Shown: positions 52,241 to 56,833 of the stretch, piece after piece | Position numbering within the stretch: the first letter of the stretch is position 1 | Layout of the letters: the number at the start of each line of letters is the position of its first letter | Assembly (NCBI RefSeq): GCF_017921895.1 | Contig: NZ_JAFIDN010000010.1 | Coordinates: 62,001-126,000 of the forward strand | DNA from: Natronogracilivirga saccharolytica | GTDB taxonomy: Bacteria; Bacteroidota; Rhodothermia; Balneolales; Natronogracilivirgulaceae | DNA: 64,000 nucleotides | Reading direction: 5' to 3' | Translations under genes and position numbers: made by a program | Notes under the pieces: model-generated | Told to the model about the DNA's origin: nothing | Database searches by the model: none | The model's input: only the letters and a program-made list of their open reading frames with translations

Positions 52241-52681
52241 TCAGACCGTTTCCGCTTTTGCCCTGGCATGCAGGAAAAAGGACAGGATCATCAGCAGGGT
52301 GGTGGTCCCGGCCGAAACAAGGCAGAAGATGCACAATGCTTCGATGACAAAAAACATGAGGTAGACCAGCCACAGGGAAAAGAAAAAGGCGGGAACCGTT
52401 ACGAATGGCAAATAGTAGAATACGGCTGCCTTGCGTATATCCAGCCAGGCGACACCGGCTACAAGCATGAGTGTGTAAAACAGCACGCCCATCAGTGCGA
52501 CGGGAACCGGACCGATTGTTGCGTATTCGCTGAGGGCCACTTCATCACAGCCCTCAATCACCGTGCAGGTAGGCACTCCGCCCAAATAATGTGAAGCTGT
52601 GAGATAAACCGCATCGGCAAAGCCGACAATTGCAATCACTACAAATGCAATCACCATATAGAACACGGAATCTTTGCTCAT
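52241..52681 (-). CDS. Vitamin K epoxide reductase family (VKOR) membrane protein
   Basis: 146 aa with four helices. It re-oxidises DsbA-type proteins using quinone. The loop cysteines are in PTCTVIEGCDEV near residues 38 and 44, and the CXXC that contacts quinone is LCIFCLVSA near 117-120; the conserved Ser/Gly region (GPVPVALMGVLFY) follows the loop. Starts 4 bases after the DsbA-like gene, so the two form an oxidising pair in place of DsbB. The next gene down is the THI-box receptor, unrelated. Confidence 0.92.
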   Translation of the reverse strand: MSKDSVFYMVIAFVVIAIVGFADAVYLTASHYLGGVPTCTVIEGCDEVALSEYATIGPVPVALMGVLFYTLMLVAGVAWLDIRKAAVFYYLPFVTVPAFFFSLWLVYLMFFVIEALCIFCLVSAGTTTLLMILSFFLHARAKAETV

Positions 52682-52685
52682 AATA

Positions 52686-53345
52686 CTACTGGTATGAAAT
52701 GATCAGATCCCGGTAATCATCCAGCGAACGGGGATTCTCGACAGCTTCGCCGTTAATGAACAGAGAGGGTACAGAGCGGACGCCCAGTTCCTGACCGTCT
52801 TCGTAATCCGCCTCGATACGATCGGAGAGTTCGGGATCCTGGAGGTCTTCATCCAGCTGATCCATATCCAGTTCAATGGAATCGGCAAACTGCCGGAAAA
52901 TGGATTCTGCGTCACCCCGTGACCACTGCTGCTGATTGATATAAATCAGGTCATGCATTTCCCAGAAAGCATCCTGACGTCCGGCGGCCTCGGCATAGCG
53001 CGAAGCAAGACGGGAGTGCTCGAAGTTCCTGAGCGGGAAATGTCGGTAGACAAACAGCACATCATCGCCAAGCTCTTCACTCAGCCGGTCGTCCATGGAA
53101 GCGTAGAACCGGCAAGCCGGACACTGAAAATCGCTGTATTTGACAACAATCACACCGGCGTCGGGATTGCCCTTGATCCAGTCATCCTGACGCGGTTCAA
53201 GAATTTCTTCGTTTACCGAATTGCCGGCACCCGCAGCAGTGGTTTCAGGCGCTGCAGATTCATCATCGGCCATCCGGAACATCACCAGTGTAACGGCAGC
53301 AAGTCCGACAACAAGTCCGCCCCAAAGCGCAAATCGTTTACTCAT
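52686..53345 (-). CDS. DsbA-like periplasmic thiol oxidase
   Basis: 219 aa. An N-terminal helix (about 7-22) anchors the protein in the inner membrane. Then a thioredoxin fold with the helical insertion of the DsbA/BdbD group: catalytic CPAC in YSDFQCPACRF near 75-78, the conserved VRSVPSLFING cis-proline near 193-197. It should insert disulfides in exported proteins, with the downstream VKOR protein as its electron acceptor. ATG at 53345; the gene pair looks like a two-gene operon. Confidence 0.93.
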   Translation of the reverse strand: MSKRFALWGGLVVGLAAVTLVMFRMADDESAAPETTAAGAGNSVNEEILEPRQDDWIKGNPDAGVIVVKYSDFQCPACRFYASMDDRLSEELGDDVLFVYRHFPLRNFEHSRLASRYAEAAGRQDAFWEMHDLIYINQQQWSRGDAESIFRQFADSIELDMDQLDEDLQDPELSDRIEADYEDGQELGVRSVPSLFINGEAVENPRSLDDYRDLIISYQ

Positions 53346-53398: not shown

Positions 53399-55315
53399 TT
53401 ATTTAACTGAGGGTTTAATGTAAAACTCGCTTACTCGCAGTCGTATTGTTTCAGCCTCTTCATTTTCTCCCAGGCGTTCTTTAATATCGGCCCGGGCGGC
53501 ATGTGCTTTCCCGGCCACCCAGGAGTCCGGAAAGGAACGGGCTGAGCGGGTAAGCAGTTCAAGGGCGTCTTCAAACCCTGCGTCATGCTCCATCAGCCGG
53601 AGCCCCTCGCGATAATCCTCTTTCCATTTGAGAGCGACCTCATCCATACGGTCCGCTTCCTGAAAAACCTCAAACTCCGGAACACTGACTTTGCTGTTTT
53701 TTTCCAGGATTTCGGGTCGCCGCCGGCTGAAATACTCCTCCAGTGCCCGTACATAGCCCTCGGCCTCGAGCCGGTTGTAACCGGGATCTTTGAGGCGCTG
53801 TTCTTCTTCCGGATTGGTGAAAAAGGAGGCTTCGACAATGACGCCGGGAATGCCGTAGGAGTTTCGAAGCACATTGGTTCCTGCTGACGGAAAGATGGTG
53901 TGGTCGGAGACGACGCTTACCGGGGCTTCACCGCCGAAAAGGTGCCTGTTCATCTGCTTTCCCATGATTTCGGCCAGCTCGACCGAGGCCCGGTTTTCAC
54001 TGGCGTTGCCGTGGAAATAGACGATCGGAAAGTTGACTTCCGGATCGGCAGTGGCGTTGTGATGCACCGACAGGAAAACGTCGGCATCATTTTCAACAGC
54101 CAGCCGGGCGCGGTCCTCAAGTTCCACCTCAACATCCTCAGTGCGGGTCATCAGTACTTTTGCTTCCCGCTCTTCAAGCATTTCCTGCAGCTTGAGGGCC
54201 ACGCGGAGATTGATCCACTCCTCCCGCTCACCGGCTGGACCAACCCGGTAGTCGTCATAGTCAGCTGTCCCGCCATGTCCCGGGTCCACCGCCACGATGC
54301 GTCCCTTCAGCGGGTCACCGGCAATGGGTTTCGATGCCGTCCCGCGATCCGCCTTTCCGGATGTTCGTGATGTCATGTAGTTATACACCTTGCGCGAAAT
54401 TTCAGCCCCTGTCTGATGCCCGACTGCGTGTTCCGGCAAATCCTTGGACAGAACGACCAGCACGTAACGGCGTCCGTCCGGAAGGAAAACAATCCCCGAA
54501 TCGTGCGTGATTCCGGTGATCGAACCCGTTTTGTGCGCTACTTCCACCTCATCGGGCAGTCCGGCGGGGATCATGTTGCGGTAGTGCTGATCTTTGAGAA
54601 TGGAGATCACTTCCTCCCGGGCGTCTTCATCAAGAATGGCACCTTCGGCAAGACGCTGGTACATTACAGCCATGCCGCGGGCTGTGGTCTCATTGTTCAT
54701 TCCGGCCTCAAATGCGGGCATATCTTCCACACCGCGAAGCACGCGGATGCCGTCAGCACCGATTTTTTGCATCGTGCGGTTGACACTGTCGGCATTGACA
54801 TGTTCGATGACCAGGTTTGTGGCCAGGTTTCCGCTTCGCACGATCATGGAATAGACCAGTTCTCGAATGGCCATTTCCGAACCCAGGTGCTCATACAGGG
54901 CATCGCCACCGTCGCGGTCGATGCTCAGCTCATAGGTGCTGCCATCGGCTATGCTGACAAATTCGTTCTTGACGGGAAGCGTGTCATCGAGATCAAAACG
55001 GCCGTCCATTGCCTGACGGTAGACTTCGATCATGACCGGTGTCTTCATGGTGCTCGCCGCATGAAACCACTCGTCGGCATTCACAAAAACTGCCGAATCG
55101 GGCTCATCGACGTCGATGAATGCAACGCCGTAGGTTCCTTCGGAGCTGCTGATGAGGGTGCGGATGTGCTCCTCGAGCTCCGTGAGTGACTTCGGCGCAT
55201 CTTCACCGTTGGCGCCCTTTGCATCTTCGCTGCCATCAGCCGGATGGCAGGCCATCATCATCACCGGCATGGCTAAAGCAACGGCAATGCAGAGCGGATA
55301 TATAAAGGAGTTCAT
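53399..55315 (-). CDS. Lipoprotein fusing a class-A beta-lactamase-like domain to an Amidase_3 domain
   Basis: 638 aa. Lipobox cysteine near residue 23 (VMMMAC). Residues about 45-320 form a class-A beta-lactamase/transpeptidase-like domain: S88-TM-K91 nucleophile motif, SGN at 161-163, and KTG at 252-254. Residues about 338-525 form an N-acetylmuramoyl-L-alanine amidase: VDPGHGG with zinc His347, Glu near 366, SVHHNA His418, and VIVEASFF with the catalytic Glu near 488. The last 100 residues are helical, TPR-like. Both active sites are intact. Individually both families act on peptidoglycan or its analogues. ATG at 55315, 15 bases after the M14 gene. Confidence 0.88.
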   Translation of the reverse strand: MNSFIYPLCIAVALAMPVMMMACHPADGSEDAKGANGEDAPKSLTELEEHIRTLISSSEGTYGVAFIDVDEPDSAVFVNADEWFHAASTMKTPVMIEVYRQAMDGRFDLDDTLPVKNEFVSIADGSTYELSIDRDGGDALYEHLGSEMAIRELVYSMIVRSGNLATNLVIEHVNADSVNRTMQKIGADGIRVLRGVEDMPAFEAGMNNETTARGMAVMYQRLAEGAILDEDAREEVISILKDQHYRNMIPAGLPDEVEVAHKTGSITGITHDSGIVFLPDGRRYVLVVLSKDLPEHAVGHQTGAEISRKVYNYMTSRTSGKADRGTASKPIAGDPLKGRIVAVDPGHGGTADYDDYRVGPAGEREEWINLRVALKLQEMLEEREAKVLMTRTEDVEVELEDRARLAVENDADVFLSVHHNATADPEVNFPIVYFHGNASENRASVELAEIMGKQMNRHLFGGEAPVSVVSDHTIFPSAGTNVLRNSYGIPGVIVEASFFTNPEEEQRLKDPGYNRLEAEGYVRALEEYFSRRRPEILEKNSKVSVPEFEVFQEADRMDEVALKWKEDYREGLRLMEHDAGFEDALELLTRSARSFPDSWVAGKAHAARADIKERLGENEEAETIRLRVSEFYIKPSVK

Positions 55316-55330
55316 GATTTCTGATTTGAA

Positions 55331-56833
55331 TTAGCGGAAAATCAGGGCATTGCCGACATCCGGAACCGGCTCCATGACATCCACCACAAAGCCGTTGATA
55401 ACCACATAGGCCACTTCATCGCCGCGATAAAGCGCCAGATTGGCAACCCGTCCCATTTTTGGTCCTGCAGGCTGCCGTCCGCGCGGACCAATCAGGTTGA
55501 GCGGGAAATCCGTGTGGCGCCCTTCCGGGAGCTCTTCCACCCTGACAGCCGTGTATCCATCCCGCATGAGCGACACCGGATCGACCGCCGCCAGATCATC
55601 TTCGGTGGCAAAGGTATCGGGATACACCTTGCCCGAATCCACCCGGAGTCCGGAAGCGTCAAACTCCTCATAGCCGTCAAAGGTGGACAAGTCCCCGACT
55701 TCACTGATCGTGCCCCGTTTGTAAAAATCGGTGGCTCCGTTGATGTTGACTTCGGAGCGGTTGACAGCCAGATCAAGCTCAAATTCGTGCTCTTTGAACG
55801 GCATGGTCACATTCCGGAAGATGGCGCTGTGCAGGCGAAACCGGTTGGGCGGGATATCCTCGTACTGCTCGACAGTGTGAGATTCGTAGGTGGTACCGGC
55901 AATGGAGCGGAACGACTCCAGCAGAAGCAGATAGTTCAGTTTGCGTATGTACTGCTTTTCGGGATCGCCTTTCATTCCGCCGCTTTCAACCAGTATCGTG
56001 CTGGTCCCCCACTTCTGGATGTTATCGCCGAACGCCCGCGGCTCAAAGGTGTCTGAAAACGTCGCCACATGTCCGGGTATGAAATCCTGCAGCATCTCGT
56101 CAAGCCGTGCGATCAGTTTCATGCTGCGCTCCCTGACGGGATTGATGCTGCGCTCTTCATCGTAGGCCGGAGCCAGAAAGGCGATAATGGTGCTGTTGGG
56201 CGTATCACCGGCCGAGTATCTGATGCTCTGGTCGTGCAGATTGAACCCGAAATCGGCGTCAAGATCATCCCGGACCCGCTTCAGAATCTGCGACCCCGGC
56301 GACTGAAGCTGGAGCGCATCGCGGTTCATATCGATGCCGAATGCCGTGCGGCGCTGGTAGCGCTGGGCTCCGTCGGGATTCAGCATGGGAATGGCATGGA
56401 TGGTGATGTTCTCCAGGATTTCGCTGCGAAGATCGTTATGTACATCGTCTGCCGTGAAAAAATGAAACAAATCGAACAGCGCCATGGTTGCGGTGGGCTC
56501 GTTGCCGTGCATCTGCGACCACAACAGCACCGATGTGTCACCCGAGCCCATTTTCAGCCGATAAATATCGCGGCCTTCGGCAGACTCCCCCTCATGAATG
56601 AGATCGATATCCGGATGCTCACCGAATTTTTTGACAAGCGGCATGATATCATCGTGTTTGAATCTGCGGTGATTCAGCGAGGGTTCGCGATAGGCTTCAT
56701 AATCGTCATACATCGTCCGGGCAAAAGTGCCTGGATCGTCCCCGTCTCTGGATTCTGAACTCATAGGCATACTGAGAAGCATCAATAATGGCAAAAAAAT
56801 GATAAAGAGTCGTAAATTTAAGGATATCTTCAT
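55331..56833 (-). CDS. M14-family zinc carboxypeptidase, secreted
   Basis: 500 aa. Signal peptide (about 1-25). Zinc ligands are His-Glu in WSQMHGNEPTA near 108-111 and His in FGFNLHDQS near 199; MLNPDGAQRYQRRTAFGIDMNRD is the substrate-binding arginine/asparagine stretch, and a C-terminal Glu in ILVESGGMKG near 292 completes the site. The last 180 residues are a domain I do not recognise, containing two or three beta strands and ending near VINGFVVDVMEPV. Likely a periplasmic or exported peptidase. Begins the - strand unit with the fusion lipoprotein; divergent from the subtilase. Confidence 0.9.
   Translation of the reverse strand: MKISLNLRLFIIFLPLLMLLSMPMSSESRDGDDPGTFARTMYDDYEAYREPSLNHRRFKHDDIMPLVKKFGEHPDIDLIHEGESAEGRDIYRLKMGSGDTSVLLWSQMHGNEPTATMALFDLFHFFTADDVHNDLRSEILENITIHAIPMLNPDGAQRYQRRTAFGIDMNRDALQLQSPGSQILKRVRDDLDADFGFNLHDQSIRYSAGDTPNSTIIAFLAPAYDEERSINPVRERSMKLIARLDEMLQDFIPGHVATFSDTFEPRAFGDNIQKWGTSTILVESGGMKGDPEKQYIRKLNYLLLLESFRSIAGTTYESHTVEQYEDIPPNRFRLHSAIFRNVTMPFKEHEFELDLAVNRSEVNINGATDFYKRGTISEVGDLSTFDGYEEFDASGLRVDSGKVYPDTFATEDDLAAVDPVSLMRDGYTAVRVEELPEGRHTDFPLNLIGPRGRQPAGPKMGRVANLALYRGDEVAYVVINGFVVDVMEPVPDVGNALIFR

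Follow-up and report, generated by a model that had tools for sequence, protein, structure and literature searches.

A predicted lipoprotein of Natronogracilivirga saccharolytica joining a class A beta-lactamase-like domain without Glu166 to a tailed Amidase_3 domain

The fused gene and its surroundings

The locus lies in a 64,000-nucleotide stretch of Natronogracilivirga saccharolytica DNA (hereafter the window) from a 3.75 Mb assembly of 49 contigs, whose nearest named relatives are Balneolaceae/Balneolales MAGs. There a single open reading frame encodes, in this order, a lipoprotein signal, a class A-like serine peptidase, an Amidase_3 domain and a helical tail (Table 1). Its extent and the completeness of both active sites were exactly as given in a preliminary description made from the sequence, and alignment bore out the further claim that S-x-x-K, SGN and KTG motifs stand in frame with a full Amidase_3 zinc site. 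The domain search proposed there recovered both Beta-lactamase2 (PF13354; residues 64-289, E = 6e-57) and Amidase_3 (PF01520; residues 341-526, E = 2e-33) in the 638-residue product, each far over the Pfam cut-off, and structure prediction with AlphaFold2 returned two confident domains, a low-confidence linker and a helical tail (mean pLDDT 89.6 for the whole protein, with most of both domains above 90). Linker residues 322-329 fell below a pLDDT of 50, indicating disorder, and the pTM of 0.59 fits two halves without a fixed orientation. The tail helices span residues 553-631 and form helical hairpins in the model; for this part, earlier labelled "TPR-like", Pfam returned no TPR match. The protein is predicted to be a lipoprotein from a plausible lipobox ending at C23; a clearer lipobox (LAAC) occupies the same place in two close relatives that carry the halves as two genes (L009 and L010).

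Table 1. Features at the fused locus, in window coordinates.
Feature	Position	Strand	Basis or remark
M14 zinc carboxypeptidase gene	55331..56833	-	15 bp upstream of fused gene
Fused gene, 638 aa, ATG start	53399..55315	-	ORF list, Pfam, AlphaFold2
Predicted lipoprotein signal peptide, residues 1-23 (VMMMA-C23)	55247..55315	-	Sequence inspection
PF13354 Beta-lactamase2 / PBP-A-like domain, residues 44-318	54362..55186	-	Pfam; PDB sequence, profile and fold matches
S88-T-M-K91 (SxxK: nucleophile and lysine)	55043..55054	-	Alignment of 37 sequences
S161-G-N163 (SxN motif)	54827..54835	-	Alignment; stand-alone relatives
R194-G-V196-E197-D198 omega-loop signature	54722..54736	-	V196 at class A Glu166 position
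K262-T-G264	54524..54532	-	Alignment; stand-alone relatives
Linker, residues 319-338	54302..54361	-	Junction comparison, low pLDDT
PF01520 Amidase_3 domain, residues 339-530	53726..54301	-	Pfam, PDB sequence search, alignment
Zinc ligand H347	54275..54277	-	Conserved in 89/90 aligned amidases
Zinc ligand E365	54221..54223	-	Conserved in 90/90 aligned amidases
Zinc ligand H418	54062..54064	-	Conserved in 90/90 aligned amidases
Catalytic E495	53831..53833	-	Conserved in 89/90 aligned amidases
Helical tail, residues 531-638 (RSFPDS motif)	53402..53725	-	Relatives' sequences, AlphaFold2
DsbA-like thioredoxin gene	52686..53345	-	Downstream of fused gene; ORF list, Pfam
VKOR family gene	52241..52681	-	Downstream; ORF list, Pfam

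The M14 gene and the fused gene are likely to share an operon. An M14 gene is kept beside the paired genes of three relatives (L008, L009 and L010), and homologues occur near the amidase in two further loci (L025 and L039); PDB matches of the M14 neighbour were weak, the best at 8e-6. The DsbA-like and VKOR genes (52241-53345) are likewise kept in close relatives and may be a pair for oxidative folding that has nothing to do with the wall enzyme. Elsewhere among related loci we observed an M15 D-Ala-D-Ala dipeptidase gene (L040), genes for DUF1611, enolase-superfamily and permease proteins (L007), NamZ exo-muramidase genes (L018, L022 and L073), Amidase_2 in 11 loci, and SusC-like and SusD-like genes in 18 and 11 loci, respectively, the last two being weak evidence since they are common in Bacteroidota. 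Taken as a set, the M14, M15, NamZ, Amidase_2 and SusC/SusD neighbours suggest peptidoglycan breakdown or salvage. The window's own genome also holds, at C9:66000-86000 (L145), a murein-recycling-like cluster in which a second PF13354 lipoprotein, reading KQG for KTG, is accompanied by three NamZ genes, GH3 (NagZ-like), AmiA-like amidase and GHL10 genes, a BadF-type kinase and a BT1/MFS transporter.

The two active sites

The SxN motif of the N-terminal half is SGN, as against the usual SDN of class A beta-lactamases, and AASTMK was present in all 31 stand-alone relatives recovered by order and phylum searches. The omega-loop glutamate, which the preliminary description could not clearly place, proved to be absent: Val196 fell at class A position 166, with E197 one residue later, in every alignment made (three MAFFT modes and hhalign against CTX-M-15, PER-1 and RAA-1, and HMM alignment to PDB chains). 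Across 21 sequences of the window clade the omega loop reads VLRGVED, in which R, G and D do not vary and V and E scarcely do, and this signature was found in 27/31 stand-alone relatives, one other (L114) having VIRGLYD and three being missed by the pattern.

Comparison with solved structures revealed PBP-A of Thermosynechococcus as the best match both in sequence (2j7v, 1.7e-26; profile 2.6e-39) and in fold (2j8y/2j7v, 8e-19, TMt 0.85-0.87). PBP-A is likewise a class A fold minus Glu166 with SxxK and KTG intact, although it differs from the window protein in having one catalytic domain, a TM anchor, SDN, a much shorter omega loop and a separate clade; it acts as a DD-carboxypeptidase and DD-endopeptidase without Glu166, and enzymes of its type are described as confined to cyanobacteria (PMC11189452). 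In our tree, which has long branches, the VLRGVED family and cyanobacterial PBP-A form separate starred clades, and CTX-M, PER and RAA are split from the other PF13354 rows by a starred branch (97/100). A second solved relative, LRA-5 (8eo5), shares with the N-terminal half the class A fold and a Val at position 166, but it is a single-domain protein with SDN, nearest to PER-type lactamases, and came from an Alaskan soil resistance screen; it was acylated by ceftazidime, and the wild type gave recombinants no resistance (PMC12777564). Both PBP-A (Leu158) and LRA-5 (Val166) are acylated by beta-lactams with inefficient turnover (PMC11189452, PMC12777564).

Because Val196 replaces Glu166 and the nearest solved structure, PBP-A, lacks the same Glu, the N-terminal half is probably PBP-like. 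It is most likely a penicillin-binding DD-carboxy/endopeptidase and not a lactamase, a function that we infer by analogy with PBP-A from the fold and the missing Glu166. Of the two activities raised in the preliminary description, beta-lactam hydrolysis is therefore disfavoured, its general base Glu166 being replaced by Val196 just as LRA-5 has Val166 and PBP-A Leu158, and D-Ala peptide trimming is the better reading.

In the C-terminal half, zinc ligands and the catalytic Glu were assigned through a motif alignment of 90 amidases. The fold and site are those of AmiA/AmiB/AmiC (PF01520), but the window amidase, which carries a helical tail and is joined to a DD-peptidase-like partner, lacks the roughly 30-residue insert that is autoinhibitory in those enzymes; the insert is missing between the second His and the catalytic Glu, which lie 77 residues apart versus 108 in the AmiC-like amidase of the same genome (L001). 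This absence disfavours an identity as a cell-division amidase. Amidases that stand alone in genomes of Bacteroidota, Sumerlaeota, Ignavibacteriales and the Xanthomonadales type also have the tail, which thus belongs to the amidase family itself; the family's stand-alone members are scattered patchily over distant phyla.

A candidate two-site murein hydrolase

The explanation that we regard as reasonably probable is a membrane-anchored murein hydrolase with two sites, a putative DD-peptidase and an amidase, acting in peptidoglycan breakdown or salvage. The bifunctional envelope protein envisaged in the preliminary description is supported by the anatomy, the repeated fusion or adjacency (below) and the gene context, the activities being putative. 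Ser88, activated by Lys91, would be acylated by a D-Ala-D-X peptide, and the N-terminal half would then remove a terminal D-Ala (as a carboxypeptidase) or open a D-Ala-mDAP cross-link (as an endopeptidase). The zinc amidase of the C-terminal half would cut the MurNAc-L-Ala bond and free the stem peptide, and the flexible linker may let both halves work on one and the same piece of murein. Acting alongside the putative operon's M14 carboxypeptidase, the fused protein could reduce murein to small peptides that feed salvage or catabolism. The folds and motifs of the two halves, the absent Glu166, the recurrent pairing and the murein-related context in relatives are established; that each half is catalytically active, that the two co-operate on a single substrate and that they serve salvage is what we infer.

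It is unlikely that such a two-site hydrolase serves instead to remodel the cell's own wall, in division or daughter-cell separation. Amidase and DD-peptidase functions co-operate in E. coli division (PMC9166362), but another amidase of the genome, L001, carries the long insert characteristic of division amidases, the neighbours at related loci look catabolic, and the patchy distribution of stand-alone relatives over distant phyla also speaks against it.

Quite doubtful is the reading of the N-terminal half as a true, divergent class A beta-lactamase with E197 (or D198) as base, fused to an amidase and protecting from beta-lactams. Matches to PF13354 and to NCBIfam class A are strong, though the curated NF033103 score of 118.9 bits stays below its cut-off of 200, and among the 21 sequences D198 never varies and E197 almost never; lying beside position 166, they could supply an alternative general base, which counts against a DD-peptidase. 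Against a lactamase, the solved relatives without Glu166, LRA-5 and PBP-A, are not efficient lactamases (PMC12777564, PMC11189452). Moreover, every alignment places E197 one residue away from position 166, SGN stands where SDN is expected, and the context is one of murein breakdown and not of resistance.

We consider it very unlikely that the N-terminal half is a sensor of beta-lactams or muropeptides, acylated on binding and controlling the amidase, with turnover at the serine site beside the point. Slow turnover would fit the loss of the deacylating Glu, and amidases are often regulated, but the low-confidence linker and the pTM do not indicate that the halves touch in any fixed way, and in related pairs the two are often separate secreted proteins.

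Junction, recurrence and wider meaning

Absence of the fusion from all relatives had been raised as a point that would speak against it; the same fusion, in the same order, occurs in a second species and assembly at 72% identity (L006), and fusions of the opposite order (amidase first) occur in another family of Balneolales. In four other relatives (L008, L009, L010 and L091) the two domains are encoded by adjacent genes, the beta-lactamase-like gene preceding the amidase gene. The amidases of L008-L010 start with a signal peptide of their own, which is gone from both fusions, and the linker occupies the site of the stop codon and amidase signal peptide of the two-gene relatives. The linkers of the two fusions differ. 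In L006 the linker consists of a short tandem repeat: the 683-residue ORF at L006:5959-8007 has, near residues 350-377, about three TEKPAEGHPK-like copies apparently grown from the amidase start EKPxAGDP. An assembly or sequencing artefact merging two neighbouring genes, to which the adjacency in close relatives and the fact that the fusion is known here from assembled sequence might point, has a nearly negligible chance of being right, because a second species is fused too and both fusions have lost the amidase signal peptide, which a frameshift error would not delete. A single shared fusion with the window and L006 as sisters was weakly rejected (p-AU 0.023, concatenated tree); on that tree, where the two are not sisters, the genes would have fused twice, or fused once and then split again.

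Looking further at the pairing, we found the tailed amidase linked to PF13354 proteins belonging to three distinct clades, and linkage state changed at least six times on the tree. The loci were retrieved with patterns of the fused protein, a bias towards linked copies that holds for the VLRGVED type and not for the remaining two clades, in which the beta-lactamase-like halves are only about 26-33% identical to the query. The first clade, VLRGVED, comprises the window group, L039 and L040 (adjacent genes in the reverse order, amidase first) and Parapedobacter (L007 and L058); the second, KPG-type, comprises Hymenobacteraceae pairs; and in the third, RYMMDF, the PF13354 domain follows the amidase within one fused protein in L070 (= L106), L104 and G104. 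Since the window genome holds only two PF13354 genes, chance adjacency on such a scale is unlikely. Most members of the window's beta-lactamase-like clade stand alone, which counts against a paired function, and no amidase match lay within 1.5 kb of that domain in 31/31 stand-alone loci checked. Several variants accompany these pairs. The Hymenobacteraceae loci (L011-L029, L052 and L055), a distinct clade, have KPG for KTG, SAIK as SxxK, and SDN or SEN. In Parapedobacter (L007:4354-6774 and L058:4396-6822), the amidase gene is immediately preceded by one that fuses a PF00144 serine hydrolase (with DUF3471) to a VLRGVED-type PF13354 domain. A Chitinophagaceae MAG (L062:3880-6903) encodes a 1008-residue ORF that joins a prolyl-oligopeptidase (S9) to the same tailed amidase.

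In the literature searched we found no description of a PF13354-PF01520 two-domain protein. PMC13104611 describes Chlamydia pneumoniae AmiA as amidase and DD-carboxypeptidase in one protein and a penicillin target, so the idea of a dual enzyme is itself not new; as described there, however, AmiA is a single amidase domain with internal PBP-like motifs, whereas the window protein has two complete, separate domains. More tentatively, and with somewhat less than even confidence, we propose that a large clade in Bacteroidota and Balneolota (AASTMK / S[SG]NLAT / VLRGVED / KTG), undescribed in the literature found, consists of class A relatives without Glu166 that are DD-peptidases of murein breakdown, and that members of this clade and of two others within PF13354 were repeatedly fused or coupled, in both orders, to one tailed amidase family as a true murein-dismantling enzyme with two active sites. 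If so, many Bacteroidota genes annotated as resembling class A beta-lactamases would be wall-peptide trimmers and not resistance genes, which bears on resistome annotation. Class A relatives without Glu166 would then exist outside cyanobacteria, offering material on the origin of beta-lactamases from DD-peptidases, and the fused protein would be a natural enzyme uniting two steps of murein breakdown.
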